Below, in pieces: positions 1-31,760 of a stretch of DNA of 59,434 nt. Each line of letters starts with the position of its first letter. The first letter of the stretch is position 1. The position numbers and the translations under genes are program-made. Origin of the DNA: Lutibacter sp. (lineage in GTDB: Bacteria > Bacteroidota > Bacteroidia > Flavobacteriales > Flavobacteriaceae); the NCBI GenBank assembly GCA_030694935.1, contig JAUYUA010000074.1, forward strand, positions 1 to 59,434, in the 5' to 3' direction. Below the pieces are notes generated by a model. The model worked only from the letters and a program-made list of their open reading frames with translations. It ran no database searches and had not been told where the DNA came from.

Positions 1-981
1 GTTTCTCTGCTAAGTAATATTAGTTTAAGTGGAAGTCTAGATTTTGGAGAAAAATTTTTAAAATCGTCAACTAAAAAAAGTTTAACAATTTCTAATAAAT
101 TAAATGTTCCTGTTACAATAACTTCAATTGTTTTGCCTAGCGGGTTTGAAAGTAATTGGTCGGGAGGAAGTATTCCGGCTTCAGGTTCAAGGGAAGTTGA
201 AATTACTTTTAACCCAGTTGACCCAAAAGATTATTCGGGAACTATTGTTGTAAAAAATAATATTGATGAGTCAATCGCAACTATTAATGTAACAGCAATT
301 GGCATAGGTGGTATCTCGTTACTTGGAGATTTAGATTTTGGTAAAGTAGAAATAGGAAAAACAGTTGAAAAATTTTTTATAATAAAAAACGAATCATCTA
401 GTATAATGGAAATTTCATTTATAACAATGCCTATTGGTTACACTTCAAATTGGAGAGCCAACGGAAATATTATACTAAACCCTAATACTGGAACTACTAT
501 TTCTATTGTGTTTAAGCCAACTGAAGCTTTGGTCTATAATGGATTTATTGATGTAATTAATAGTGTCGATAATTCAAGTAATAGTAGAACTAGTATTAAA
601 GGTGAAGGAATTAGTGGTATTGATTTAGTTATAGGAATATGGAAACTAGTTAAAAGTTATGTATTTGACCAAGGGGCTTGGGAAGAAATTGTATATGAAT
701 CTTGTAAACTATTAGATAGATCCATATTTGAAGAAAATGGAGTTTGGAAATATACAGAATTTAGTAATATAGATGGAGTTTGCATTCAAGATATGGATAA
801 TGGCTTTATAAATGGATCTTGGAAGAAAAATTCTGATGGCAGCTATCAAATTAAGTTGAAATATATTGAAGAAGGAGAATTTACTGAAACATGGATCATT
901 TCGTTTCCAACATCAAACACTATGAAAGTTATTTACAATGTGAATAATTCGGATTATACATTGTTTTCGAGAGTTGAATAG
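1..981 (+). CDS. Secreted ASH-repeat protein with C-terminal lipocalin-like domain (5' truncated)
   Basis: The frame is open from base 1, so the start lies upstream of the window. What is visible is two or more beta-rich repeats of the ASH / choice-of-anchor-D type, each with an LDFG motif near its beginning and a closing VTAIGI or IKGEGI segment. A C-terminal domain of about 115 residues follows, beginning IGIWKLV and ending SFPTSNTMKVIY...SRVE. This last domain is clearly paralogous to the next gene and resembles lipocalin-like domains of Bacteroidota lipoproteins. Extracytoplasmic location is inferred from the repeat type. No catalytic motif is visible. The next gene starts 53 bases downstream with no terminator between, so the two are probably cotranscribed. 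Ligand unknown. Confidence 0.75.
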   Translation, partial: VSLLSNISLSGSLDFGEKFLKSSTKKSLTISNKLNVPVTITSIVLPSGFESNWSGGSIPASGSREVEITFNPVDPKDYSGTIVVKNNIDESIATINVTAIGIGGISLLGDLDFGKVEIGKTVEKFFIIKNESSSIMEISFITMPIGYTSNWRANGNIILNPNTGTTISIVFKPTEALVYNGFIDVINSVDNSSNSRTSIKGEGISGIDLVIGIWKLVKSYVFDQGAWEEIVYESCKLLDRSIFEENGVWKYTEFSNIDGVCIQDMDNGFINGSWKKNSDGSYQIKLKYIEEGEFTETWIISFPTSNTMKVIYNVNNSDYTLFSRVE

Positions 982-1034
982 CTTTGAAATAAAAATTCAC
1001 AAACAATAACGTTAACAACAAAAACCAAAAAATT

Positions 1035-1502
1035 ATGAAAAAATTAAATTTATTTATGTGCGTAGTACTTGCATTACTTATTGTTTCATGCTCAAAAGAT
1101 AGCGATGATAACAACGATGTAGCAGGAGATGATTTAATAATAGGTGTATGGAAACCTGTAAAAGATGTTTGGACTTATGATGGTGTTAGTGAAGAGTATG
1201 CCTATAACACTTGCGAACAAAAAAGCAGGTTAACTTTTGAAGGAAATGGAAATATAAAAATCTTAAGTTTCTATGATGATGAAGACAATGGAAACTGCAT
1301 TGAAGATAACTTTGGTTTTGTAAGTGGTTCATGGGGAAAAATTTCTGAAGGCAAGTATAAAGTTACAACGACATACTATAATGAAGATACAAAAAAGAAT
1401 GAAACGGAAACAGAGACAATTAGCATTTCATTTCCTACATCAAATACTATGAGAGTATTATATGATGCTACTGATTATTCGGAATATTCAAGAGTACAAT
1501 AA
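1035..1502 (+). CDS. Lipocalin-like lipoprotein
   Basis: A 155-residue protein with a lipoprotein signal peptide: Met-Lys-Lys, a hydrophobic stretch and the lipobox IVSC. An acidic Ser/Asp/Asn spacer follows. The mature part is one lipocalin-like beta domain that starts IIGVWKPVKD and ends SFPTSNTMRVLYD...YSRVQ. The same domain closes the preceding ASH-repeat protein, with matching SFPTSNTM, G-S-W and S-R-V signatures, so the pair arose by domain duplication. It is probably anchored to the periplasmic face of a membrane or to the cell surface. Function and ligand are not known. The ATG is the only sensible start because it directly precedes the signal peptide. Confidence 0.8.
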   Translation: MKKLNLFMCVVLALLIVSCSKDSDDNNDVAGDDLIIGVWKPVKDVWTYDGVSEEYAYNTCEQKSRLTFEGNGNIKILSFYDDEDNGNCIEDNFGFVSGSWGKISEGKYKVTTTYYNEDTKKNETETETISISFPTSNTMRVLYDATDYSEYSRVQ

Positions 1503-1697
1503 CATTGTTTATAGATTTTATTGTAATACTCATTAATAATCTGATTAAATATGTAAAAAATTAATTTATTATAATTTTTACGATCTAGGTTTCAATTTAA
1601 AATTTGACAAGTTTAACAGCCAATATTTTAGTTACAAAATTGGCTTATAAAATGACTTTAATTAAAAGAATTTCTCGAGGCTCTTCCTCGGGTTTGA

Positions 1698-1780
1698 GAT
1701 CAATAAAAATATAAAGTGAATGCCAGAAATCACTATAAAAACGGGGCGTACCCGAAAAGCCTTACGAGTAGGAAAATTAA
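1698..1780 (+). promoter_or_regulatory. Candidate structured leader, copy 1
   Basis: About 80 bases ending 15 bases before the ATG at 1796 match the leader of the gene at 4300. Shared blocks, in order, are ATCAATAAAAA, a small hairpin, CAGAAA in its loop, AACGGGGCG, ACC, AAAAGCC and TAGGAAAATTAA. The hairpin is AGTGA (1715-1719) with TCACT (1730-1734). In the other copy the stem reads GTGG/CCAC, so one base pair has changed on both sides. I do not recognise a known riboswitch. A regulatory RNA or promoter element is inferred. Confidence 0.45.
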
Positions 1781-1795
1781 CTATTAATTGTATTT

Positions 1796-2434
1796 ATGAA
1801 AAAACTAACCAAACTAAGTATTGTAGTATTGCTTCTTACGCTGGCAACAGAATCTTTCGCTCAACAATTTGGCATCAAAGCAGGCTTGAATTTATCCAAT
1901 ATGCTTATGAAGGATGATGATGACACCTATAGTGATGATTTCAAAATGAATCCTGGGTTTCATATTGGGCCAACAATGGAATTACCAATAAATGAAACGG
2001 TTTCATTTGAAACGGGATTGTTGCTTTCTACCAAAGGTTACAAAGAAACATTTGACGGTGATACGGACAAGTATAACCTGCTTTATCTTGACATTCCATT
2101 AACTGCTAAGGCAACCATTGATATTGGCGGTTCAAAGATTTATGGAATTTTTGGACCTTATATTGGAATAGGATTAAGCGGAAAAGCTAAATATGAAGAG
2201 GATGGAGAGTCTTTTGAAGAAGATATCAAGTTTGGTTCAGATGAAGATGAAGACGATTTGAAGAGATTAGATTATGGCTTAACTATAGGGGCAGGAATGG
2301 AATTTAATGCTATTCAAATTGGCTTAAGCTATGGATTGGGTTTGGCTAATATTTCAACTTATACTGATGGAGGAGCAAAGATTAGCAATCGTGTTTTAGG
2401 CATTTCATTAGGGTATAAGTTTGGGAAGAAATAG
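1796..2434 (+). CDS. Outer-membrane beta-barrel protein (porin/PorT-like family)
   Basis: A 212-residue protein with a Sec signal peptide ending in ESFAQQ. It continues as a small beta-barrel of the OmpW/PorT-like outer-membrane type: the mature chain opens FGIKAGLNLSNM, has alternating hydrophobic strands, and ends in LGYKFGKK. Loops are very acidic (DEDEDD near residue 150), which may mark an exposed ion-binding loop. Proteins of this broad family are common in Bacteroidota and mostly of unknown function. The gene follows a conserved leader shared with the gene at 4300. The ATG was chosen because it begins the signal peptide; longer overlapping frames starting in the leader look non-coding. 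Confidence 0.75.
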   Translation: MKKLTKLSIVVLLLTLATESFAQQFGIKAGLNLSNMLMKDDDDTYSDDFKMNPGFHIGPTMELPINETVSFETGLLLSTKGYKETFDGDTDKYNLLYLDIPLTAKATIDIGGSKIYGIFGPYIGIGLSGKAKYEEDGESFEEDIKFGSDEDEDDLKRLDYGLTIGAGMEFNAIQIGLSYGLGLANISTYTDGGAKISNRVLGISLGYKFGKK

Positions 2435-2574
2435 ATATAGCCTAAAATAAATCAAAAACAATAGAGGGTGTGGTTTGTTTTTTCAATTTTCTAAATCACA
2501 TCTTCTTTTGTACCAATAAAAAAGGTTTGTTTCAAAGACTTTTATGGTTCTAATAAATTGTCTAATGATATTGA

Positions 2575-2607
2575 TATATCACTTCAGAATATTTAAGAGT
2601 ACAATAG
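2575..2607 (+). pseudogene. 3' relic of a lipocalin-like paralogue
   Basis: The last codons here read Ser-Glu-Tyr-Leu-Arg-Val-Gln-stop, nearly the C-terminus of the gene ending at 1502 (SEYSRVQ-stop). The DNA matches closely around GAATATT.AAGAGTACAATA. Upstream the frame is closed after a few codons. It is best explained as the tail of a decayed third copy, but the match is short. Confidence 0.35.
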
Positions 2608-2650
2608 CAGAGAATATAAATATTTTTTAACACATACTAAAAAAATTACA

Positions 2651-4006
2651 ATGAAAAAATTACCACATTTATGTATAACACTATTTATATGTTGTTTTAA
2701 TATTGCAACCTATGCTCAAAGTTATTTTGGGTATACGTTGGACAATTATTCAGGAATTCACGGGGTAACTATTAATCCTGCCAATATTGTTGATTCGCCC
2801 TTTAAAGCAGATATAAATTTGGTTTCTGCAAGTTTTTTTGGTGGAAGTGATTATTTAAGTATAAATATACAAGATATTTTAAAGGCTGAAGAGGGATTTT
2901 CCTTTGATGATAATGTTAAAAAATTCCCTAAAGACGACAATAATTTCTTTTTAAATGCAGATATTTTAGGACCTTCTTTTATGTTTAATATCAACAAAAA
3001 AAGCAGCATTGGTTTTACTTCAAGAGTGCGAACTGTTTTAAATATTAATAATATAAATGGAGAATTATATGAAAGTCTTGCTGATGGATTTGATGAAACT
3101 AATGACTTTGATCTCAACATTAAAGATTTTAATGGAACAATACATGCTTGGGCAGAAGTGGGTTTAACTTATGGCAGAATACTTATAAAAAATGAACAAT
3201 ACTTATTAAAAGGAGGAATTACGCTAAAGTATTTACAAGGAGCTGGAGCTGCCTTTTTTAATGCGCCATCTATTTCAGGGCAATATGACGCTTCTGCTAA
3301 TTCTCTTAACACTATGGGTAGTTTAAACTATGGCTTAAGCCAAGAGGAATTTAAGCCAGAAGATTTAGATTTTAAAAACCTCACGGCAGGGCTAGGGGCA
3401 GATATTGGCTTAGCATATCAATGGCAAAATAAATCTTTAAACCAAGCAGATGAGTCTAAACTAACAAATTACAGTAAGTATAAACTAAAACTTGGATTGT
3501 CTGTAACTGACATTGGATCAGTAAATTACAAAGAAAGCAAATCAACGAAATACGATTTAAATCAAAATGTTGATGTAGATAGTTTTGATGAAGACGATAC
3601 AGAACAAGTTCTTGAAGATCTATATGATGGGGTAACAACGTATGGAAGCACTAAAATTAAATTGCCAACTGCGTTCAACTTACTTATTGATTATCAAATT
3701 AAAAGAGCATTGTATTTATCTTTGGCAAGTTCAATTTCATTGGTAGATAATAAAACAGCAATTGCAAATAGCGTAATTAATACTTTAACTATTGCACCTC
3801 GTTTAGAAACAAAGTGGTTTAGTATTTATAGTCCGATTAGTTTTAGGCAGTATGGTGATTTTGCTTGGGGAGCAGGTTTACGATTTGGACCAATAACTAT
3901 CGGATCCGGGTCATTATTAACAAATTTGTTTTCTGATACAAAATCAGCAGATTTCTATTTTGGACTTAAAATGCCAATTTATAGAAAATTGCTTAAGAAA
4001 GTTTAA
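2651..4006 (+). CDS. DUF5723-family outer-membrane protein
   Basis: A 451-residue protein with a signal peptide ending in ATYAQS. The mature N-terminus (YTLDNYSGIHGVTINPANI) carries the asparagine-proline motif typical of the DUF5723 family, which Bacteroidota share with PorV/FadL-like outer-membrane barrels. Repeated glycine/aromatic beta strands run to the C-terminus (YFGLKMPIYRKL). It is expected to form a barrel in the outer membrane; substrate and partners are unknown. It follows the smaller barrel gene by 216 bases and may be transcribed separately, as the spacer holds a gene relic. The family call rests on overall pattern rather than on a catalytic motif. Confidence 0.7.
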   Translation: MKKLPHLCITLFICCFNIATYAQSYFGYTLDNYSGIHGVTINPANIVDSPFKADINLVSASFFGGSDYLSINIQDILKAEEGFSFDDNVKKFPKDDNNFFLNADILGPSFMFNINKKSSIGFTSRVRTVLNINNINGELYESLADGFDETNDFDLNIKDFNGTIHAWAEVGLTYGRILIKNEQYLLKGGITLKYLQGAGAAFFNAPSISGQYDASANSLNTMGSLNYGLSQEEFKPEDLDFKNLTAGLGADIGLAYQWQNKSLNQADESKLTNYSKYKLKLGLSVTDIGSVNYKESKSTKYDLNQNVDVDSFDEDDTEQVLEDLYDGVTTYGSTKIKLPTAFNLLIDYQIKRALYLSLASSISLVDNKTAIANSVINTLTIAPRLETKWFSIYSPISFRQYGDFAWGAGLRFGPITIGSGSLLTNLFSDTKSADFYFGLKMPIYRKLLKKV

Positions 4007-4208
4007 TATAAGAATTAATTGAAAGGAATAGAAAAAATTTCTATTTAAATTATTTAAGGTTTTTTACTTTATACAAGAGTAGGTATTTGCTAAAGTTATT
4101 GAGGTTAGAAACAAGTTAAAGGCAAGTTTTTGACATCACAGCCTGCAAATACACTTTCCGAACTAGAATGGTTGATAGTTCTTAATATTTTATTGCTTGG
4201 ATAAACTT

Positions 4209-4287
4209 AAATCAATAAAAAAAGTGGAGTCAGAAACCACATAACAAACGGGGCGATACCTAAAAGCCAAATAATTAGGAAAATTAA
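4209..4287 (+). promoter_or_regulatory. Candidate structured leader, copy 2
   Basis: Second copy of the leader seen before the gene at 1796, ending 12 bases before the ATG at 4300. It has the hairpin GTGG (4224-4227) / CCAC (4237-4240) with CAGAAA in the loop, then AACGGGGCG, ATACC, AAAAGCC and TTAGGAAAATTAA. A second stem, CCTAA with TTAGG, is possible here. The downstream genes are not homologous, so shared regulation is more likely than simple gene duplication. No known RNA family was recognised. Confidence 0.45.
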
Positions 4288-4299
4288 TAGATAAATAAA

Positions 4300-4851
4300 A
4301 TGAAAAAAATACTTTTGCTCCTGGCAACTCTTTTTATATATGTGGCTTCTTGGTGTCAGACACCAATTGGTACAATGAATAATGAATATAGCAATTGGCT
4401 TTTCGTTAATAGCGACAAAGCCCTTCAAGTTAGATATAAGCAAGTTAAACTAGAAAACGAAATAGGCTATTTTGAAGTGCAATTCAAGATTAATTTTGAT
4501 GACCAAATTTTCTGTTCTCATCCAACATGCCTTGGATATCTATTCGTATTTAGTTATCCTACCTTAGATAATATGAAAAGTATAGAAAAAAGTTATAAGT
4601 TTTATAACAGTTTTAAGGGAATTTATACATTATCAGATACTATTCCTATAAAGTTATTTTTTCCTGACGGCTCTAAGAGAATTCTAAGGGAAGAAGGATT
4701 CTTTTACACAACGGACAATAACAATACAGAAATGTCAGCTAACTTTTTTTCAAATTGCGTAGATGATATATTATCTAATAATCCGAATTACCATAGGTGT
4801 AAACCATATAAATCAAATTTCATAGAATCGGAAGCTATAATGATTAAGTAA
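4300..4851 (+). CDS. Secreted protein of unknown function
   Basis: A 183-residue protein with a signal peptide (MKKILLLLATLFIYVASWCQ). The mature chain has four cysteines (FCSHPTC near residue 70, then NCV and RCK near the C-terminus) that could form two disulfides, and a mixed alpha/beta pattern. I recognise no family. The cysteine before Gln at the end of the signal peptide could be a weak lipobox (ASWC), so lipoprotein attachment is possible. It is preceded by the same conserved leader as the barrel gene at 1796. A 9-bp inverted repeat lies just downstream. Confidence 0.65.
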   Translation: MKKILLLLATLFIYVASWCQTPIGTMNNEYSNWLFVNSDKALQVRYKQVKLENEIGYFEVQFKINFDDQIFCSHPTCLGYLFVFSYPTLDNMKSIEKSYKFYNSFKGIYTLSDTIPIKLFFPDGSKRILREEGFFYTTDNNNTEMSANFFSNCVDDILSNNPNYHRCKPYKSNFIESEAIMIK

Positions 4852-22293: not shown

Positions 22294-23538
22294 TTAATCC
22301 AATTCGTCTGGAATTTCTTCAGATTTAATAAGTGTTTTTGGCAAAATTAAGTTTAAAAGAACGCCAATGACCGATGCCAATCCTATTCCAGCCAAGGAAA
22401 AATTACCATAACTCATTTGTGCGCCTCCAATGCCAATAGTTAAAATTACGGAAACAATCACCTGGTTTCTGGTGATGGAAAAATCGGTTTTTGAGTCGAT
22501 CAAAGTTTTAATTCCAATACTTGCAATCATTCCAAAAAGCAGCAACATAATGCCGCCCAACACTGCCGGCGGAATGGTTTTTAAAATGGCACTTATTTTC
22601 CCTACCAACGAAAACACAATAGCGGTAACAGCAGCAATTCTAAGAACTCTGGGATCGGTTATTTTGGTTAAAGCCACAGCGCCGGTAACTTCAGAATACG
22701 TGGTGTTTGGCGGACCGCCTAAAAATCCTGCAAAAGCAGTGGCAATACCATCGCCCAATAAGGTGCGGTGCAATCCGGGATCTTTTACAAATTCTTTATC
22801 GGCAACACCGCTAATGGCGTAAATATCCCCAATATGTTCAATAATGGGTGCAATGGCAACAGGAAGCATATATAAAATAGCCGCCCAGTTGAATTCTGGC
22901 GCTGTAAAATTTGGAAGCGCAAACCAGGCAGCTTCACCAACAGATGAAAAATCGACCAAGCCGGCAATTATGGAGATGATATAACCAACAATAATTCCAA
23001 TAAAAATCGGAATCAATTTAATCATTCCTTTGGTGTAAATCACAATAACAATGGCCGTAATTAAAACCGCAAATGCAATGGGCCAGTTTGATTTTGCCAT
23101 CCCAACGCCAACGCTGGCTAAAGACAATCCAATCACCATAATCACTGGTCCAATCACCACCGAAGGAAATATTTTTTCAATCACTTTTAATCCCCACATT
23201 TTCACAACAAAAGACACAACGCCATACACCAAACCAACGGCAATAAGGCCTCCCAAAGTTCCGGGATACCCATACAATTCAGTGGCGGCCACAATTGGCG
23301 CGATAAAAGCAAAACTGCTCCCCAAAAAAATAGGGACTTTTCCTTTGGTAATTACGTGAAAAATAAGCGTTCCAACGCCCGCGGTAAACAACGCAACCGA
23401 CGGGTCAATGCCAATTAACAAAGGAACCAGCACTGTTGCCCCAAATGCAACAAATAAAAATTGGATACCAACAATTATGCGCTTTGGGGTGTTCGAAATG
23501 ATGGCTAAGTTTTGATTTTTGGAAGATTTTATGGACAT
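22294..23538 (-). CDS. uraA: NCS2 permease, uracil/xanthine type
   Basis: 414 residues with about 14 membrane segments. The signature GGPPNTTYSEVTGAVALTK corresponds to the NCS2 substrate-site motif of UraA-like uracil permeases. VFVAFGATVLVPLL-type opening and PVAIAPIIEHIGDIYAISG also fit. It imports uracil or a related base with protons. It faces the purine-type carrier across a shared terminator, making this a small nucleobase-uptake cluster. Exact base specificity cannot be read from the sequence. Confidence 0.88.
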   Translation of the reverse strand: MSIKSSKNQNLAIISNTPKRIIVGIQFLFVAFGATVLVPLLIGIDPSVALFTAGVGTLIFHVITKGKVPIFLGSSFAFIAPIVAATELYGYPGTLGGLIAVGLVYGVVSFVVKMWGLKVIEKIFPSVVIGPVIMVIGLSLASVGVGMAKSNWPIAFAVLITAIVIVIYTKGMIKLIPIFIGIIVGYIISIIAGLVDFSSVGEAAWFALPNFTAPEFNWAAILYMLPVAIAPIIEHIGDIYAISGVADKEFVKDPGLHRTLLGDGIATAFAGFLGGPPNTTYSEVTGAVALTKITDPRVLRIAAVTAIVFSLVGKISAILKTIPPAVLGGIMLLLFGMIASIGIKTLIDSKTDFSITRNQVIVSVILTIGIGGAQMSYGNFSLAGIGLASVIGVLLNLILPKTLIKSEEIPDELD

Positions 23539-23654
23539 GTTTTAAAATTTTGGTCGCGCTAATTTAAGTATAAAAATAAAACAACCCGAAATTAAAACTT
23601 TAGAATCATTTTAAATTAATGCTATTTTTTAAACAAAAATTTTGATAATATTTT

Positions 23655-23785
23655 GGGCCTACCCGATTTTTTTGTGTGCGTTCCCCGCCAGCTGGCGGGT
23701 CGCGCTTTCCGCTGCAAGTCCGCGTCGCGCCTAAAAGCGCAACTGTGGGCTTTTCGCTTCAATCGCTAACGCGTGTTGTTTTAAA
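23655..23785 (+). repeat. Dispersed intergenic repeat, family A
   Basis: Begins GGGCCTACCCG, contains the perfect palindrome CCCGCCAGCTGGCGGG (23684-23699) and ends near CAATCGCTAACGCG. Same family as 12880-13040. It fills the gap between the uracil permease promoter and the hydrogenase protease gene. Confidence 0.6.
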
Positions 23786-23805
23786 AAATAAGAATTGGAT
23801 ATCAA

Positions 23806-24267
23806 TCAATGGAATTTTTGAATTTCGCTGAGGTTTTCAACAAAATAAGATAAAGCATTTTTTAAGTTTGTTTTTGCCTGTTTCGACAATCCAATGCCAA
23901 TTTCCCAATTACAGCCTTCAATTTTCATCAAATATGCCTTTGGTTTTTTTGTATAAAGAGTTTCACATAGATTCAAAATTTGGTTTGGAGGAACGGAATG
24001 GGTAGAAAAAGAAACTTCTTCTGAAGGATAAATACGTTCGAATGAAAATCCGTCATTTATTTCCGATTTACAGGCATCAATAAAAATTACAGTTTTAAAA
24101 GTTGAAATCAATTCCGCGTCTTCCACCATCAATTGGTATTTATACAGTAAATTATCGGTTTTAAATCCTTCCTTTTCCAAGAGATCCAAAAACACCCAGC
24201 CAAGTCCGTCGTCCTGCCGCGTGTTATTTCCAATCCCAATAACAAGTGTATTATCTAATTTTTTCAT
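23806..24267 (-). CDS. hoxW: [NiFe]-hydrogenase maturation protease, HoxW-type
   Basis: 153 residues from the ATG at 24267. The family motif GIGNNTRQDDGLGW supplies the acidic nickel-sensing residue; the second acidic site is in FIDACKSE, and the histidine in STHSVPPNQIL. Such proteases remove the C-terminal tail of the large subunit after nickel insertion. The gene overlaps hoxH by 17 bases and the substrate's tail is present, so partnership is clear. An ATG at 24303 would add 12 non-family residues. Confidence 0.9.
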   Translation of the reverse strand: MKKLDNTLVIGIGNNTRQDDGLGWVFLDLLEKEGFKTDNLLYKYQLMVEDAELISTFKTVIFIDACKSEINDGFSFERIYPSEEVSFSTHSVPPNQILNLCETLYTKKPKAYLMKIEGCNWEIGIGLSKQAKTNLKNALSYFVENLSEIQKFH

Positions 24268-25702
24268 CGATGATATTTCCAAAACAATCTTCCAATTGCA
24301 CAATTAAAGGCATTTCGCCCAATGCATGTGTAGCACAACTCAAACAAGGATCATAAGCCCTAATCGCTATTTCAATTTGGTTCAACATTGGTTCCGTGAT
24401 TTCCGGTTTGTTATTGAGTATGTTTTTGGCAACTTCCCTAACGCCACGATTCATCGCTTCGTTATTGTGCGTTGTGGAAACAATTAAATTGCATTTGGTG
24501 ATCAAGCCTTTTTCATCGGTATGATATTCGTGAATCAGCGTTCCTCTTGGCGCTTCAATAATACCAATGCCTTTTTGTCTTGGCGTGCCTTTTCGCACCA
24601 AATCGTTATTCATCAACGTGTCATCCAGCAAAAATTCTTTCATCGCTTCCGCACTGTACAGCAACTCAATCAATCGAGCCCAATGGGTATGCATGGTCAT
24701 ATTGTTGGGCTTGTTATTTGTATATTCCTTAAATATTTGTCGTTCTTTTTCGGCAAGCGGCGTTCCCATATAAGCGCAGGTATTCAATCGGGCTAAAGGT
24801 CCAACACGGTTCCATCCATTTTCCCTGCCATATTTAGCCATATACGGGAATTTCAAATAGGACCAGGGTTCAACAGCTTCTTTAAAGTGATCGCGATAAT
24901 CAACATCGGCAATATTTAGCAACTCATTTCCTTCAGAATCTACAGATCTTAACCTGCCGTCATACAATTCAAAAGCACCAGTTCCTTTACGCACCAAACT
25001 TAAATGATTGGACGGATAAGCAGCGAAATTGTCAAGCCACGCCGCGTTTTCAAGATAATAGGTTTTAATAAAATCTACCATTTCTTTGGACCAGGCAATC
25101 ATCGTGTCAACGTTTGGAATCAGCATTCCGTCCAAGAAATAAGCACGTTCTTCCGGTTTAAATGTTTTGTGCACTCCTCCTGGAACCGCTAAAATTCCGT
25201 GAATTTTTTTACCCGCCAAGGCTTTAATGATTTCCTGCCCAAATTTTCGCATCAAAATGCCTTTTTTTGCGAGTTCCCTATTTTCGGCAGCAACGGCAAC
25301 TACATTTCTTTTTTCTGCAGGAGCGTTAATTCCGAATAGAAGATCGGGTGATGCCAAATAAAAAAAATGCAAGGCGTGAGACTGAAAAATTTGTCCGAAA
25401 TGCAATAATTTTCTCAATTTTGTGGCTGTTGGCGATAAATCTTCGGGATCAACTCCAACCAATTGATCAATGGCTTTTGCGGCAGCCAAATGGTGACTTA
25501 CCGGACATATACCGCAAAGGCGCTGCACCAATACCGGCGCCTCCCAATATGGATGTCCCTGAATAAATTTTTCAAATCCCCTAAATTCTACAATGTGTAA
25601 AAATGCATCGCTTACAACGCCGTTTTCGTCAAGTTTTATGGTCACTTTTCCGTGGCCTTCAACACGTGTAACAGGATCTATAATTATTTTTGTTGTTCCC
25701 AT
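24251..25702 (-). CDS. hoxH: HoxH, [NiFe]-hydrogenase large subunit (group 3d-like)
   Basis: 483 residues. The nickel ligands are in the L1 motif RLCGICPVSHH and the L2 motif DPCLSCATH near the C-terminus. After the L2 histidine a 24-residue tail (ALGEMPLIVQLEDC...) remains for proteolytic removal. The opening IIIDPVTRVEGHGKVTI is typical for NAD-linked bidirectional hydrogenases. It carries the Ni-Fe(CN)2CO site that splits or makes H2 in the cytoplasm. It starts 17 bases after the fused small-subunit gene and ends overlapping hoxW. Accessory hyp genes are not in the window. Confidence 0.95.
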   Translation of the reverse strand: MGTTKIIIDPVTRVEGHGKVTIKLDENGVVSDAFLHIVEFRGFEKFIQGHPYWEAPVLVQRLCGICPVSHHLAAAKAIDQLVGVDPEDLSPTATKLRKLLHFGQIFQSHALHFFYLASPDLLFGINAPAEKRNVVAVAAENRELAKKGILMRKFGQEIIKALAGKKIHGILAVPGGVHKTFKPEERAYFLDGMLIPNVDTMIAWSKEMVDFIKTYYLENAAWLDNFAAYPSNHLSLVRKGTGAFELYDGRLRSVDSEGNELLNIADVDYRDHFKEAVEPWSYLKFPYMAKYGRENGWNRVGPLARLNTCAYMGTPLAEKERQIFKEYTNNKPNNMTMHTHWARLIELLYSAEAMKEFLLDDTLMNNDLVRKGTPRQKGIGIIEAPRGTLIHEYHTDEKGLITKCNLIVSTTHNNEAMNRGVREVAKNILNNKPEITEPMLNQIEIAIRAYDPCLSCATHALGEMPLIVQLEDCFGNIIDEKIR

Positions 25703-25719
25703 TTGAAGCTATTTTTGGT

Positions 25720-26982
25720 TTAGTCATATTTGTATTTGGGATGCGCAATGGAATATTCTTCCTGAAATAAAATATTTTTAACCACGTTCCAAATATAATT
25801 TGCATCTGGAGGACATCCCGGAATATGATAGTCTATTTTTACGATTTCGTGGTTTGCATATACGTTGTTTAAAATTTTTGGAATGTCTTCATGATTTGGA
25901 ATAATCATTTCATTTTCTTCGCTCGTCATCGAATCCAGATAAGATTCTCTTAAACATTCTTCCAGCGAAAAAGTGTTTCTCATTGCCGGCAAACCGCCCC
26001 AAATGGCACATTCACCTACGGAAACCAAAATATCGCAATTTTTTCTGAATTCGCGAAGCACTTCAATATTGTGGGTGTTGCAGCAACCGCCTTCGATAAG
26101 TCCGATATCACAATGTTTGCTGAAATTTTTAATGTCGGTTATTGGGCTTTTGTTAAATTCAATCACTTCAAATAAATCAAGAATCCCTAAATCTATGTCG
26201 AGCATAGACATATGGCAACCAAAACAGCCGGCAAGCGAAGTGGTTGCGACAATTTTCTTTTTGGTTTTGGTTCGTTGTTTTTTAACTTGAGTTAAAGCTA
26301 TTATTTTTTCATCTGGAATAGAATCAAATTGCCGATCTCCAAATGGCTTGATGAACGATTTTCCTTTGACTAAAATGGAACCGGTCGGACAAATATGCAT
26401 AGCGCGAACCGCTTGTAATTCGGATAATTTGGCTTCTTGTTCATAATCAATGGACACCAAGGTTTTGTTACCTTTGTTTATGGAATTAAAAACTTTATAA
26501 CCATCAAATGTTTTTACTTCTTCAATACAACGCTTACATTTAATGCACCTGTTTTGGTTAACTACAATGCGTTCGGGACGCGCATCTGTTATTCTGTCTA
26601 TAAATAAATGTGGAAAGCGGGTGAATTTGATTCCTGTTTCATATCCTAAATTTTGCATTGGGCAATCGCCGCTTTTTTCGCAGGACGGGCAGAAGTGGTT
26701 TCCCTCAACAAACATCATTTCTATAATGGCTTTCCGGGTATCCAACAATTCTGGGGTGTTCACTTCTATTTCCATTCCATCAGCTACGCGAACGGTGCAG
26801 CCAGCAACGTCGCGACCGTTTAATTTTACGGTGCAAACCCTGCAGGTTCCTAGCGGATCTAAATGTTTAAAATGGCACAAGGTTGGAATAAAAACACCGT
26901 TTTGTTTAGCGGCTTCTATTAAATTTAATCCTGTTTCGGCCGTGCAAACCCTGCCGTCAATCTTAAAGGAACTATTTTTCAT
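25720..26982 (-). CDS. hoxUY: HoxU-HoxY fusion: diaphorase Fe-S subunit joined to hydrogenase small subunit
   Basis: 420 residues in one uninterrupted frame. Residues 1-210 match HoxU: [2Fe-2S] cysteines C36, C47, C50, C62; the His/Cys cluster site H96, C98, C101, C107; and C146, C149, C152, C198 for a [4Fe-4S] cluster. A lysine-rich linker (about 213-243) leads into HoxY: C253 and C256 (GCFGC), C325 (VGECAIWGG) and C390 (IPGCPPD) bind the proximal cluster beside the NiFe site. In well-known NAD-reducing hydrogenases such as that of Ralstonia eutropha these are two proteins of about 234 and 209 residues. The order U-Y-H is kept. The fusion would tie diaphorase and hydrogenase halves covalently. 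Confidence 0.92.
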   Translation of the reverse strand: MKNSSFKIDGRVCTAETGLNLIEAAKQNGVFIPTLCHFKHLDPLGTCRVCTVKLNGRDVAGCTVRVADGMEIEVNTPELLDTRKAIIEMMFVEGNHFCPSCEKSGDCPMQNLGYETGIKFTRFPHLFIDRITDARPERIVVNQNRCIKCKRCIEEVKTFDGYKVFNSINKGNKTLVSIDYEQEAKLSELQAVRAMHICPTGSILVKGKSFIKPFGDRQFDSIPDEKIIALTQVKKQRTKTKKKIVATTSLAGCFGCHMSMLDIDLGILDLFEVIEFNKSPITDIKNFSKHCDIGLIEGGCCNTHNIEVLREFRKNCDILVSVGECAIWGGLPAMRNTFSLEECLRESYLDSMTSEENEMIIPNHEDIPKILNNVYANHEIVKIDYHIPGCPPDANYIWNVVKNILFQEEYSIAHPKYKYD

Positions 26983-27325
26983 GGGTTTATCTAAATTATC
27001 AATAATTAATTATCAGGTATTTAATATTTTTAATTTTCACAACTTAAAACTCACAACTTGAACTTTTTATCCTATCCCCAGCTATTTCCGAAGGAAAGGG
27101 AGTTTGTTTTTAAAAAACCTGAACTTCCCTGATTAGTGTTTACCGGTTTCTATTAATTTTTTTTCTTTTCTTTTCATGTTTTTCATGCATTCCTAACCCC
27201 TGCTTCGACTATCGCTCAGCACGTGTCTTTAGAGGGGAATTTGATTCGTTTAACATAAGACTTCGGACTTCTGACTTCTGACTTCCGTCTTCCGTCTACA
27301 ACCTTTAACTTTTAACTTTTAACTC
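26983..27325. other. Spacer inside the hox locus with repeat tracts
   Basis: 343 bases between hoxF and hoxUY without a gene. It holds a CTTC-type tract (27255-27298), AACTTTTAAC repeats (27300-27325) and a block with TTCGACTATCGCTCAGC. No convincing terminator or TAnnTTTG core was seen, so readthrough from hoxF is assumed. Confidence 0.5.
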
Positions 27326-29047
27326 TCACTGCGTATCCTTTATCAAAGAATCATAATTATAAACAGCGGCTTCCATATCAAATTCCACGTTTAAATTCTC
27401 ATTGGTTTTTATAATTTTTTGGTTGAAATATCCTTCAAATTTATCGAGTGCCATTACAAGCGTATTTGCCGAAAACTGTCCCAATCCGCATCTGCTGGTG
27501 AGTTTAATGATTTTACCCCATTCCTTAATTTCTTCTAAGTCCTGCGAGGTACAAATCCCTTTTTTAATTTTTTTGATTTTTTCGTGTAAAATCTGATTTC
27601 CGGCTCGGCAAGGGGTGCAAACACCACAAGATTCCTCTTTAAAAAACTTGGTGTAGTTCTCCAAAATTTTTGTGATGCTTCTGAAATTGTTAAAAACCAT
27701 AATAGAACCTGCGCAGATTAAATCTTCCTTGCATATTTTACGATCAAATTCGGTGTTGTTGATACAGATGCCCGACGGACCGCTAATTTGAACAAAATGA
27801 GGTGATGTGGCTTGGCAGAGGTTTAAAATTTCTTTCACGGTCATTCCCCATTCAATTTCATAAATGCCAGGTTTTGCAACATCGCCAGAAATACTCAACA
27901 CTTTTGTTCCTTTGCTTTCTTTGGTGCCGATAGTTGAAATAAAATGGGTTCCCAATTCAATGATGCGGGCAGCCATGGCAAAAGTTTCCACATTGTTTAC
28001 GATGGTAGAGCATCCTAGATAGCCAAATTCTGTTGGGTAATATTTTTTAATTCTTGCTTCGCCTCGGTTTCCTTCCAAAGATTCAATTAAAGCCGATTCT
28101 TCGCCGCAAATATAAGCGCCTGCGCCAACCTGAATTTGTATGTTAAAATTAAATTTTGGAATGCCAAGGATATCGTTCCCCAAAAGGTTATTTTCTTGAA
28201 ATTCACGAAGGGTATTTTCTATTTTTTCAAGCAAATACATGTATTCAGCACGCAAATAAATAAAACCGGTGGTAGCACCGGAAATGTAGGCCGCCACAAT
28301 CATTCCTTCAATTACCAATCCGGACAAATTGTTAAGCAATGATTTGTCTTTAAAAGTTCCAGGCTCACCTTCATCGGCATTGCAGATAATGTATTTTTTT
28401 GAAGTGGAACTTTCTTTGCTGCTTTTCCACTTTTTGGCTGTTGGAAAAAATGCGCCGCCGCGACCTTCGAGATTTACTATTGAAATAAGATTTAAAATCT
28501 CATCAGGTGTATGGTTTTTTAATTTTTTCAGGGCAATTCCCATTTCATATTTTCTATAGAAAATTGTTTTGTTGTCCGCAGGCAGGTATTGGATTTTACT
28601 GGTTGGATTGCTTGAAATAAAGCGCAATGAATTCCCGTTTTTCAGCTGTTGAATAATGGTTTTTACTTTTTCGGGCGTTAAATTGGTAAACGGAAAAAAG
28701 TTGATCAATGCTGCCGGCTCCTGATCGCTTAGTCCAATGCACGAAGTTTGAAACAGCGAAAACAGCGGGTTTTCACCATAACAGCCAAAAGTGCATCCTG
28801 TTTCTTTTTCAAATGCAGCTTTTATTTGTTCAAAACCCTTAAACTCTGAAACAATGCTGTTGTTCAAATAAATAATGTATTTTCCTGTGGGTTGGCGGTG
28901 GAAAAAATGGTAAAAAGAGACGACACCTTCAATTTCTATTTTTGAAACGCTTAATTTTTGGGCAATTTGCACAATCGCATTTTCTGAAATATAACCAAAT
29001 TTATTTTGATACTCCCAAAGCTTGTTTAAAAGACCTGTTCTGTTCAT
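27326..29047 (-). CDS. hoxF: HoxF, NAD(H)-binding diaphorase subunit with NuoE-like N-terminal domain
   Basis: 573 residues, close to the Ralstonia-type HoxF. Residues 1-135 are NuoE-like but lack the usual four cluster cysteines; C103 (TSCIGLSDQEPA) is the main conserved one. Residues 180-573 are NuoF-like with ICNADEGEPGTFKD, GAGAYICGEESALIES and the [4Fe-4S] ligands C474, C477, C480 and C520. It would bind FMN and NAD(H) and exchange electrons with HoxU. Normally strict flavin-site residues deviate: GRGGAFF (195-201) for GRGGAGF, RAEY (266-269) for RGEY and GYLGCST (342-348) for a GKPT-type loop. First gene of the locus. Confidence 0.92.
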   Translation of the reverse strand: MNRTGLLNKLWEYQNKFGYISENAIVQIAQKLSVSKIEIEGVVSFYHFFHRQPTGKYIIYLNNSIVSEFKGFEQIKAAFEKETGCTFGCYGENPLFSLFQTSCIGLSDQEPAALINFFPFTNLTPEKVKTIIQQLKNGNSLRFISSNPTSKIQYLPADNKTIFYRKYEMGIALKKLKNHTPDEILNLISIVNLEGRGGAFFPTAKKWKSSKESSTSKKYIICNADEGEPGTFKDKSLLNNLSGLVIEGMIVAAYISGATTGFIYLRAEYMYLLEKIENTLREFQENNLLGNDILGIPKFNFNIQIQVGAGAYICGEESALIESLEGNRGEARIKKYYPTEFGYLGCSTIVNNVETFAMAARIIELGTHFISTIGTKESKGTKVLSISGDVAKPGIYEIEWGMTVKEILNLCQATSPHFVQISGPSGICINNTEFDRKICKEDLICAGSIMVFNNFRSITKILENYTKFFKEESCGVCTPCRAGNQILHEKIKKIKKGICTSQDLEEIKEWGKIIKLTSRCGLGQFSANTLVMALDKFEGYFNQKIIKTNENLNVEFDMEAAVYNYDSLIKDTQ

Positions 29048-29374
29048 TTGGAAAGAATTTACAGTTTCTAAAGCTAAAGATACGAAAAAAATAAATTTTA
29101 ACGCCTGATTTTTAAATGTTTAAAACGATTTATATTTAATTCAAAGTTTTTAGATGGTTTATTAAAAATCGGTAATCAATAAGATAAATATCACGAATTA
29201 AATAGGAAAAAAAGGTTATTTTACTATTATTTTAATTTACGAATTGTGTAATAAAATGACTAATTTTTGCTTAATAATTTAATGATGTCAAAAAAATCGA
29301 CTAAAAATTAAATTTAATATAATTTAATTATTTTAACGCGTGTTGAATGGTTTTGCTTTTTATAACCATAAAAT
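29048..29374. other. AT-rich region upstream of hoxF
   Basis: No gene seen. A weak promoter core for hoxF, TATCTTTA on the minus strand, lies at 29082-29075 about 30 bases before the start codon. The rest is very AT-rich without clear repeats or operators. Confidence 0.35.
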
Positions 29375-29525
29375 GAGGATGTCTAAAATGGATTCCTTTT
29401 TTAACCGCAAAGGACCTAAGTTTTTCGCAAGGAACGCAAAGCTCTTATTTTAAAAACTTAACATTTTGTGAACATTGCGCTTTTTTTTCGAACATTGAGG
29501 TTAAACCAATTTTTTAGACAGCCTC
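29375..29525. repeat. MITE-like nested inverted repeat
   Basis: Outer arms GAGG (29375-29378) and TGTCTAAAA (29380-29388) pair with TTTTAGACA (29512-29520) and CCTC (29522-29525). Inside lie TTTAACCGCAAAG, CGCAAGG, CGCAAAG and GAGGTTAAA, the same internal motif set as the element at 9775-9902. About 150 bp, no coding potential. It is 25 bases beyond the stop of the TonB receptor gene. Confidence 0.6.
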
Positions 29526-29549
29526 TTTAAAAGATATGTTTTGGGTGGA

Positions 29550-31760
29550 TTACAAATTAAATTTCATCCCAACAATAAAATTTCTTCCTATATTTTGAAT
29601 CCCGTCTGCTTTTAAGCGTGACAGGTGCGCAATGTAACTTTCATCAAATAAATTGTTGGCGTTTATGTTGATGTCAAAATTTGTTTTTCCAAATTTAACA
29701 GTGCCTCCAAAACCAATATTGACCAAAGAATATCCTTTGGATGCAGTTTCAAATCCGCTTACTTTATTTTGTTTGAATGTGCTTGAAACATTTATGGAGG
29801 TGAACCCGTCTGTAAGCCAATTTTTGATGTTAAATTCTGTTCTTAACGTATTGTTCCAATTGTTGGCTGGAATTAGAGGCAAATAATCACCGTCTTGTTT
29901 TTCTCCGGTAACCGTTTCAAAACTGCTTTCAAAATGCAGCCAATCTAAAGGATGCGGATGAAAATGTACGCCAATTTCTCCGCCATACAATTTTGCGTCG
30001 TTTTGGATATACTTAAAAACATCATTGTCTTCGCGTGTTTCGCCAGTTGGTGAGGTGTAAATATAATTGTTCACATGGTTGTAAAAACCATTTACAAAAA
30101 ATTCAAAATGATCTGTGTTGTATTCAATATTTAAATCGGTTTGTATGTTTTGCTCTGTTTTTAAACTGCTGTTTCCAATTTCGTACCTGTTGGTTCCTTC
30201 ATGAACGCCGTTAGAAGTGAGTTCCGCCAAATTGGGTGCCCTAAATCCGGAAGCTGCATTTAAACGTACTATTAAATTGTCGTTTAAATTTGTTTTATAA
30301 CCCAATGAGGCATTAAAACTGTTATATGATTTATCAATGGCTTCAAAAGAACCTTCTTCGCCAATAGTTCCATTGGCTTCCGTTGAAATGTTTCTGTTGT
30401 CAAATCGCAATCCGGCCAATATTACATTGGAATTCCAATCATAATTGGCAGTTCCGAAAAAGCCTAAATCGTTGGTAAGAGCATCTGGAATTAAATATTC
30501 TTCCCCTGAATTTATGTTGTTTTGGTGCATTCCCTGAATACCTAAAATGGTTTCTAAATTGCCGTATTTTGGCAAATGGTATTTTGCATCGTAATTAAAA
30601 GTATTCAGATTCATGTGCAGCACCGCAACATTGCTGTCTTCAAATTCGCTTCTGTCGTTATTGATATAGCTTAAATCAATATCTAATTTCGATTTTGAGA
30701 AAAACAAAATATTGTTGAAGCTCAACAAATGGTTAACAACTCCTTGTTTCGGATACATCGTTTTTTTGTTGGTGGTTTGATCGGCAACACCATCTTCAGG
30801 CATTCCTAAATCCAATTTGTTATAATTGTACCTGAAAACACTGGAGATTTTTGAATCGCTGTAGCCAATCCCTGTTTTAAAATCAGTTTCGCTGTAACGT
30901 GTGTTTGTTATGCGATCTCCGCCAGTAATTTTATAATCGGAATGTGTATTGTAACTTCCTCTTGCCAAGAATTTCCAATTTTCAGAAGAAGTTTTTAAAC
31001 CTATTGATGTATTGCTTCCGGCCGTATTCGAAAATAATTTCTGGTCAAAATTTGCAACAAAAGTGTTTGCCTCCGCAAATTTTTCCGGAATAAAATACAG
31101 GACGCCGCCCAAAGCATCGGAACCGTAAAGCAAAGATGCTGGACCTTTGATCACTTCAACGCTTTCTATTCCCGAATCGTTTAAGCCCAAACCGTGTTCG
31201 TCTCCAAACTGCTGATTTTCAATTCGTACGCCTTGAGAATACACCAAAACGCGATTGCCGCTTAATCCGCGAATCACAGGTTTCCCGATGGAAGTTCCGG
31301 TTGAAACTTGCGAAACTCCAGGGATTGTTGTGAGTCCTTCAATTAAAGTGGAGGTTCCCTTTCGCTGTAAGGTTTTAATGCTTTCATGTTCCACCTTCAT
31401 CACGTTTTGTGATTGCAATTTGTTAAAAACAGTGGATACAATAACTTCATCCATTTTAAAAACAGCTTCTTCCAAAGTGAAATTTAGCGTGGTTTCTTTT
31501 GCTGATAATGCAATGGTTTTTACCTGAGTTTTAAAGCCGATGTAAGCAACAGTCATTTTAATGGCGTTACTGGGAAGATTGGTCAATTCATACATCCCGT
31601 TTTCATTGGTGGATGTTCCTTTTTGAAGTTCTTCAATATAAATTGTAACGCCAAATAAAGGCTCGTTTTGGCTATCGGTAATTTTGCCCGATATTTTGTT
31701 TTGTGAATGCGCAACTAAGGATAATCCTATTAAAAACAGGAAAGTTATATTTAATTTCAT
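29550..31760 (-). CDS. TonB-dependent outer-membrane receptor
   Basis: 736 residues: signal peptide ending SLVAHSQ, a carboxypeptidase-regulatory-like domain (KISGKITDSQNEPLFG, about 22-100), the plug (TLIEGLTTIPGVS, KPVIRGLSGNRV, SVEVIKGPASLLYGSDALGG) and a 22-strand barrel closing in GRNFIVGMKFNL. It imports a ligand through the outer membrane with TonB energy. Short size and plug resemble metal-chelate or cobalamin receptors rather than SusC. It lies downstream of a small His-rich protein and the metal ATPase on the same strand, so metal uptake or sensing is plausible but not proven. Confidence 0.9.
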   Translation of the reverse strand: MKLNITFLFLIGLSLVAHSQNKISGKITDSQNEPLFGVTIYIEELQKGTSTNENGMYELTNLPSNAIKMTVAYIGFKTQVKTIALSAKETTLNFTLEEAVFKMDEVIVSTVFNKLQSQNVMKVEHESIKTLQRKGTSTLIEGLTTIPGVSQVSTGTSIGKPVIRGLSGNRVLVYSQGVRIENQQFGDEHGLGLNDSGIESVEVIKGPASLLYGSDALGGVLYFIPEKFAEANTFVANFDQKLFSNTAGSNTSIGLKTSSENWKFLARGSYNTHSDYKITGGDRITNTRYSETDFKTGIGYSDSKISSVFRYNYNKLDLGMPEDGVADQTTNKKTMYPKQGVVNHLLSFNNILFFSKSKLDIDLSYINNDRSEFEDSNVAVLHMNLNTFNYDAKYHLPKYGNLETILGIQGMHQNNINSGEEYLIPDALTNDLGFFGTANYDWNSNVILAGLRFDNRNISTEANGTIGEEGSFEAIDKSYNSFNASLGYKTNLNDNLIVRLNAASGFRAPNLAELTSNGVHEGTNRYEIGNSSLKTEQNIQTDLNIEYNTDHFEFFVNGFYNHVNNYIYTSPTGETREDNDVFKYIQNDAKLYGGEIGVHFHPHPLDWLHFESSFETVTGEKQDGDYLPLIPANNWNNTLRTEFNIKNWLTDGFTSINVSSTFKQNKVSGFETASKGYSLVNIGFGGTVKFGKTNFDININANNLFDESYIAHLSRLKADGIQNIGRNFIVGMKFNL

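Follow-up and report, generated by a model that had tools for sequence, protein, structure and literature searches.

A HoxU-HoxY fusion protein as the apparent usual form of a predicted group-3d-type [NiFe] hydrogenase in Bacteroidota

The hydrogenase operon of a Lutibacter sp. (contig JAUYUA010000074.1; the window, that is, the whole stretch of DNA that was analysed, comprises 59,434 nucleotides) encodes the diaphorase subunit HoxU and the hydrogenase small subunit HoxY as a single protein of 420 amino acids. The fusion in one open frame is real and clean, and HoxUY is common and differs only modestly in architecture from the known enzyme. With a probability of about 0.85, the operon encodes a predicted soluble, group-3d-type, NAD(P)-linked [NiFe] hydrogenase that consists of three chains (HoxF, HoxUY and HoxH) rather than four or five, with the fusion formed via a lost stop codon and bringing about 1:1 pairing of the two modules. 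The relevant features are as follows.

25720..26982, minus strand: hoxUY fusion gene, 420 aa (open reading frame, Pfam domains, PDB matches, 46-row alignment)
26347..26982, minus strand: HoxU part, residues 1-212 (Pfam, PDB match, 46-row alignment)
26260..26322, minus strand: Lys-rich tether, residues 221-241 (alignment, linker survey, open-frame control)
25723..26259, minus strand: HoxY part, residues 242-420 (Pfam, PDB match, 46-row alignment)
27326..29047, minus strand: hoxF, 573 aa (HoxE-like thioredoxin-fold domain 3-136; FMN/NADH-binding HoxF part 191-542)
24251..25702, minus strand: hoxH, 483 aa, NiFe large subunit (Pfam NiFeSe_Hases; PDB match 5xf9_D, E=1.2e-150)
23806..24303, minus strand: hoxW-type maturation protease, overlapping the hoxH end (TIGR00072, 68.8 bits, cut-off 47.45)

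The hoxUY frame runs from an ATG at 26982 down to 25720 through 420 codons with no internal stop, and the same interval read on the plus strand contains many stops. The completeness of both halves, as claimed in the preliminary description, is borne out by the domain search, which yielded three HoxU/NuoG-type Fe-S domains (Fer2_4, 5-76; NADH-G_4Fe-4S_3, 83-120; Fer4_Nqo3, 139-202) followed by a domain of the NiFe small-subunit/NuoB family (Oxidored_q6, 253-402, 90.8 bits against the Pfam cut-off of 27). The best PDB match of the HoxY half is 5xf9_C (E=2.9e-49), and the HoxU half matches 5xf9_B (E=4.4e-37) as the second-best hit, the top one being HydA of 7t2r. Against the NCBIfam equivalog model NF005745 (bidirectional hydrogenase HoxU), the HoxU half scores 163.6 bits with a cut-off of 333, so that, judging from this score, it is homologous to the HoxU proteins of that model, yet falls outside this narrow family. 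In line with the cluster cysteines reported earlier, all predicted ligands are present: C36/C47/C50/C62, H96/C98/C101/C107 and C146/C149/C152/C198 in the HoxU part, and C253/C256/C325/C390 in the HoxY part, which is of the short HoxY type. By homology, the former are predicted to bind one [2Fe-2S] and two [4Fe-4S] clusters, and the latter, one [4Fe-4S] cluster. All 16 predicted ligands are invariant in the 46 aligned fused proteins, the one from the window included.

All genes of the operon lie on the minus strand, in the order hoxF, a spacer of 343 nt, hoxUY, hoxH and protease gene. Group 3d (Hox) enzymes catalyse H2-dependent NAD(P)+ reduction, with a HoxH of subgroup 3d in the HydDB classification, and are recognized by a HoxH-type large subunit, a short HoxY, a diaphorase (HoxF/HoxU) akin to NuoF and the N-terminal part of NuoG, and a maturation protease. 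Each of these four components is found in the operon: HoxH carries both CxxC nickel-ligand motifs (RLCGICPVSHH and DPCLSCATH, aligned with 5xf9_D) as well as a C-terminal extension, the small subunit is of the HoxY type, HoxF contains the domains 2Fe-2S_thioredx, Complex1_51K and NADH_4Fe-4S (best PDB match 5xf9_A, E=2.2e-98) and completes the HoxF/HoxU diaphorase, and the protease scores above the TIGR00072 cut-off. A likelier start of the protease than the listed TTG at 24303 is an ATG that was noticed by eye near 24267. In the interval 23000-30000, there was no Rfam match at the gathering thresholds, and the repeats around hoxF belong only to short two-copy families.

The closest characterized relative is the NAD-reducing soluble [NiFe] hydrogenase HoxFUYH of Hydrogenophilus thermoluteolus (5xf9), which gives the top PDB hits of HoxF, HoxH and the HoxY half. 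It shares the HoxU motif NHFCPxCEKSGDC and the CxGLSDQxPAALIN motif of the HoxF N-terminal domain but has HoxU and HoxY as separate chains (5xf9_B and 5xf9_C). The soluble hydrogenase of Cupriavidus necator H16 (pHG1) has a like gene order, hoxF-hoxU-hoxY-hoxH-protease, in which, unlike in the window, hoxU and hoxY are separate genes that overlap by 4 nt. In the available excerpt of PMC9849572, HoxU and HoxY of the purified C. necator enzyme appear as separate bands, in agreement with the earlier statement that characterized enzymes make these subunits as two proteins.

Another relative is the electron-bifurcating NiFe-HydABCSL of Acetomicrobium mobile (7t2r), in which HydA, by its N-terminal part, matches the HoxU half and the small subunit matches the HoxY half. 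In HydABCSL, HydB has an extra ferredoxin-type domain at the C-terminus. The HoxU part of HoxUY ends after the Nqo3-like ferredoxin domain and no Pfam domain is found past residue 542 of the 573-aa HoxF, so that assignment to this family was rejected; according to the excerpt of PMC8880783, HydA far exceeds this length and has additional clusters, in an enzyme of five chains. Phaeodactylibacter xiamenensis is given as a holder of a 3d enzyme in the part of the HydDB paper that was available (PMC5037454), and three loci from Phaeodactylibacter MAGs (L070, L073 and L085) fall inside the fused clade of the HoxY tree. Thirteen phage records match HoxUY; in the three listed, the alignment is confined to residues 1-205, with 30-31% identity, and no record spans 80% of the query.

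The activity and direction of the HoxF-HoxUY-HoxH enzyme can be predicted by analogy with known Hox enzymes. The three-chain Hox enzyme would oxidize H2, reversibly, at the NiFe site of HoxH, and the electrons would pass to the [4Fe-4S] cluster of HoxY, then to the HoxU clusters, the [4Fe-4S]/FMN of HoxF and, finally, NAD(P)+, as in the Hydrogenophilus HoxFUYH. In HoxFUYH, the seam between HoxU and HoxY is the contact of the diaphorase and the hydrogenase. Since the ligand sets equal those of unfused Hox and the tether shows little conservation, nothing points to a changed electron path, which is probably unaltered by the tether. The fusion would make the production and pairing of the two modules obligatorily 1:1, and securing this 1:1 assembly is likely to be its main effect.

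A more far-reaching role can be considered in the context of the host genome (an assembly of 3.2 Mb, 97% complete). This genome has a complex I operon (L117, G000:C33:1-9000) that lacks nuoE, nuoF and nuoG, with nuoD followed directly by nuoH (B, D, H and I named by NCBIfam; C, J and L by eye), located downstream of a weak match to the beta subunit of 2-oxoacid:ferredoxin oxidoreductase. The only match in the assembly to the NuoG-type domain PF10588 is HoxUY itself, whereas PF01512 has two, namely, HoxF and a NuoE/NuoF-like protein of 567 aa encoded on another contig. There is also an uptake-type [NiFe] hydrogenase (L116, G000:C45:58000-70000), with small and large subunits and HypB, next to cytochrome-b-like, protease-like and HypF-like proteins identified by eye. 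For cyanobacteria, the idea that HoxEFU serves as the NADH module of complex I is raised in the accessible portion of PMC9414918. If HoxFU could not detach from HoxUY, it could not be the NADH module of the nuoEFG-less complex I, in which case the fusion would permanently commit the diaphorase to the hydrogenase and fix a strictly coupled H2:NAD(P) converter across a Bacteroidota lineage; such a role appears unlikely.

The preliminary description treated the fusion as unusual, a view that gave way in the survey of Bacteroidota, where 40 of the 43 distinct genomes with a close HoxY in the drawn samples have the fused form, two have separate genes and one is cut by a contig end. The query in this survey was HoxY alone (181 residues), so that separate and fused genes competed fairly, and the genome samples were drawn rather than exhaustive. 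Without the sample centres G000 (the genome of the window) and G435, both known beforehand to be fused, the tally becomes 38 fused, two separate and one undecided among 41. In the phylum sample, 98 of the 395 genomes gave some HoxY match, with scores above 220 bits in eight, seven of which are fused and one (G135) separate; one-by-one classification covered these eight, the remaining matches all scoring below 130 bits. The gene is present in 29 of the 38 genomes of the genus sample (28 fused, and G430 cut by a contig end) and in three of the 296 genomes of the Flavobacteriales sample, namely, G000 and G296, both fused and already counted, and G734, with separate genes. In the order of G435, which we take to be Chitinophagales, it was found in six of the 198 genomes, fused in all six, G435 included. 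In two phylum samples from outside Bacteroidota, the fused form was found only in the sample centres themselves: G432, a MAG titled Acidobacteria, among 31 genomes with the gene of the 297 in its phylum sample, and G433, a MAG titled Planctomycetaceae, among nine of 246. Two long frames that suggested independent fusions, of 478 aa in G519 and 446 aa in G1104, were rejected because each of these genomes encodes HoxU separately, in a different frame, and the 236-aa frame of G513 is too short for a fusion. Thus, the fusion looks like the usual form of the enzyme in this clade and in Bacteroidota more widely, rather than an oddity of one genome.

Searches with the whole fusion as the query give a similar picture: the best 120 of the 4992 matches in the protein database are 394-445 aa long and contain both domain sets, and 80 of the 124 confirmed loci on named genome contigs were examined, all 80 with one frame across both parts. 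The contig scan was kept out of the tally because, with the fusion itself as the query, it favours fused forms. In one locus (L063), the contig begins within the HoxU part. The surroundings are largely conserved: among 125 fused loci, hoxF is close upstream and hoxH close downstream in 104, hoxF is close and hoxH farther downstream in six, the best-scoring hoxF lies farther upstream in nine, with a second hoxF in between in those that were opened or scanned for motifs, and six loci end too soon for the neighbours to be read.

With respect to the origin of the fusion, the trees favour a single event, without proving it. The trees were built from 122 of the 191 loci with HoxY, after thinning of high-identity rows to 11 and merging of identical rows; rows at contig ends or without HoxU, and the window's own copies (L003 and L004), were left out. 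Support for repeated joining of the neighbouring genes, or for re-splitting in some lineages, comes from the full HoxY tree (122 rows, 64 fused), which requires two changes of label, because the long-branch HoxY of C. necator (branch length 1.75) falls inside the fused clade; a single change is seen in 12% of the 200 bootstrap trees, the bootstrap not having settled, although monophyly of the fused forms is not rejected by the AU test (p 0.266). When C. necator and Acaryochloris are removed, the HoxY tree (120 rows) shows one change (SH-aLRT 100). A single change is also seen in the HoxU tree with 121 rows (SH-aLRT 98) and with the 119 rows that remain without these two (100), and in the HoxH tree with 117 rows, 61 of them fused (100), and with 116 rows, without C. 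necator (99). The HoxU, HoxH and second HoxY trees come from short searches with support by SH-aLRT only, and the best HoxH tree was obtained with the simpler LG+G4 model and a warning of long branches meeting.

The presence of fused HoxUY in one Acidobacteria MAG (L074) and one Planctomycetaceae MAG (L111) could likewise be taken to suggest more than one origin; however, the former lies within a supported Flavobacteriia-type subclade and the latter among Saprospiraceae-type rows, albeit with weak support, so that these copies are explained by gene transfer or by mis-binning, the latter being possible because both are on MAG contigs. Altogether, repeated origin or re-splitting seems quite improbable compared with a single joining.

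The neighbours of the fused clade in the HoxY and HoxU trees are G734 and a 12-row group with separate genes from the phylum of G432 (L152-L159, L161, L163, L164 and L168), which shows 57-62% identity in HoxY and 44-50% in HoxU and in which, in contrast to the window, hoxU and hoxY are adjacent but separate. The two genes overlap by 4 nt in the separate forms of G135, C. necator and Lichenicola, and are close together in others, so that a small indel or loss of the stop codon would suffice for a fusion. Under the single-origin scenario, adjacent or overlapping hoxU and hoxY would have lost the intervening stop in this manner, the tether would derive from the former C-terminal end of HoxU and the former N-terminal end of HoxY, and subsequent descent with few transfers would be the simplest history.

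The tether itself is consistent with such an origin, as the HoxU tail runs on into the HoxY head without a break in the fused forms, some of which retain a Met at the position of the HoxY start of unfused relatives. Its sequence is poorly conserved: the mean identity to the window over the 46 fused proteins is 0.21 in residues 221-241, compared with 0.71 in residues 1-212 and 0.77 in residues 242-420. The lysine-rich character noted in the preliminary description holds for the window but is not common to every relative (L069 and L077 being exceptions). The span from CPxG to LAGCFGCH, measured in 123 of the 125 fused loci, is 57-66 aa in 122 of these, mostly 60-61, and 87 in the remaining one; in L153, with separate genes, the HoxU tail and HoxY head add up to 53 aa, counted by eye. 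None of the 124 loci has an in-frame stop in the linker, compared with 74% of base-shuffled linkers, a result that is partly circular because the label 'fused' requires an open frame.

A poorly conserved tether would also fit a fused gene whose product is cleaved there, or from which HoxY is additionally started at a relic internal start, so that the working enzyme would be the ordinary four-chain one. A loose pattern detects a Met near the former HoxY start in 18 of the 123 fused loci (e.g. L094, L099, L100, L104 and L065), and for Lutibacter profundi (L131/P0125), the HoxY in public databases, 163 aa long, begins at an internal Met of the fused frame. On the other side, the frame is open in all 124 loci, residues 221-252 of the HoxUY in the window include no Met, and the L. 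profundi start (MSMLD...) would drop the first two HoxY cluster cysteines; given this loss and a DNA frame that is open through both parts, the supposedly separate L. profundi protein seems to result from a wrongly annotated start. A search of the loci examined for eight further database entries of 163 aa found none of them. Cleavage or internal initiation is, accordingly, a doubtful alternative to a single working HoxUY chain. Finally, an assembly or sequencing error (a missed stop or frameshift) that joins two genes is ruled out for practical purposes by the single frame across the 80 named loci examined of the 124 confirmed and in 28 of the 29 genomes of the genus that have the gene, which is cut by a contig end in the remaining one.

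HoxUY is a natural, probably single-origin case in which the two halves of a Hox enzyme, hydrogenase and diaphorase, share one chain, and could be useful to builders of simplified NAD(P)H-regenerating hydrogenases. As far as titles and the beginnings of abstracts show, no description of a natural HoxU-HoxY fusion was found among the open-access papers listed. In the portions available of open-access papers on HoxU and HoxY, 'fused' refers to tags, promoters, PCR pieces, cloning, or an equivalence of HydB plus HydC to HoxF, and in the table of PMC2974642, as far as available, a group 1 enzyme is the only one entered for two flavobacteria. Database names often cover one half of the protein ('diaphorase moiety small subunit' or 'NADH-quinone oxidoreductase subunit B family protein'), so that surveys seeking separate HoxY genes can mislabel HoxUY, and annotators should be wary of such one-half names.

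Several related loci carry extra gene copies. The locus in the window has a single hoxF, with CGEE in the motif GAGAYxCGEE[ST]AL, and seven other Lutibacter loci (L041, L042, L043, L050, L051, L053 and L054, at about 700-4500 in each) have a tandem pair of diverged hoxF genes ahead of hoxUY. The corresponding residues are CGAE in the first gene of the pair; the second has CGAA, and also GLGGA or GCGGA in place of GRGGA. The first Glu of this motif affects the choice between NADH and NADPH in E. coli NuoF, so that, by analogy, altered cofactor use is possible in the loci with tandem hoxF. In Winogradskyella (L057 and L058, 1-7235), the order is hoxF-hoxUY-hoxF2-hoxUY-hoxH, with two diverged HoxUY copies, each retaining all 16 ligands, and one hoxH within the stretch examined.
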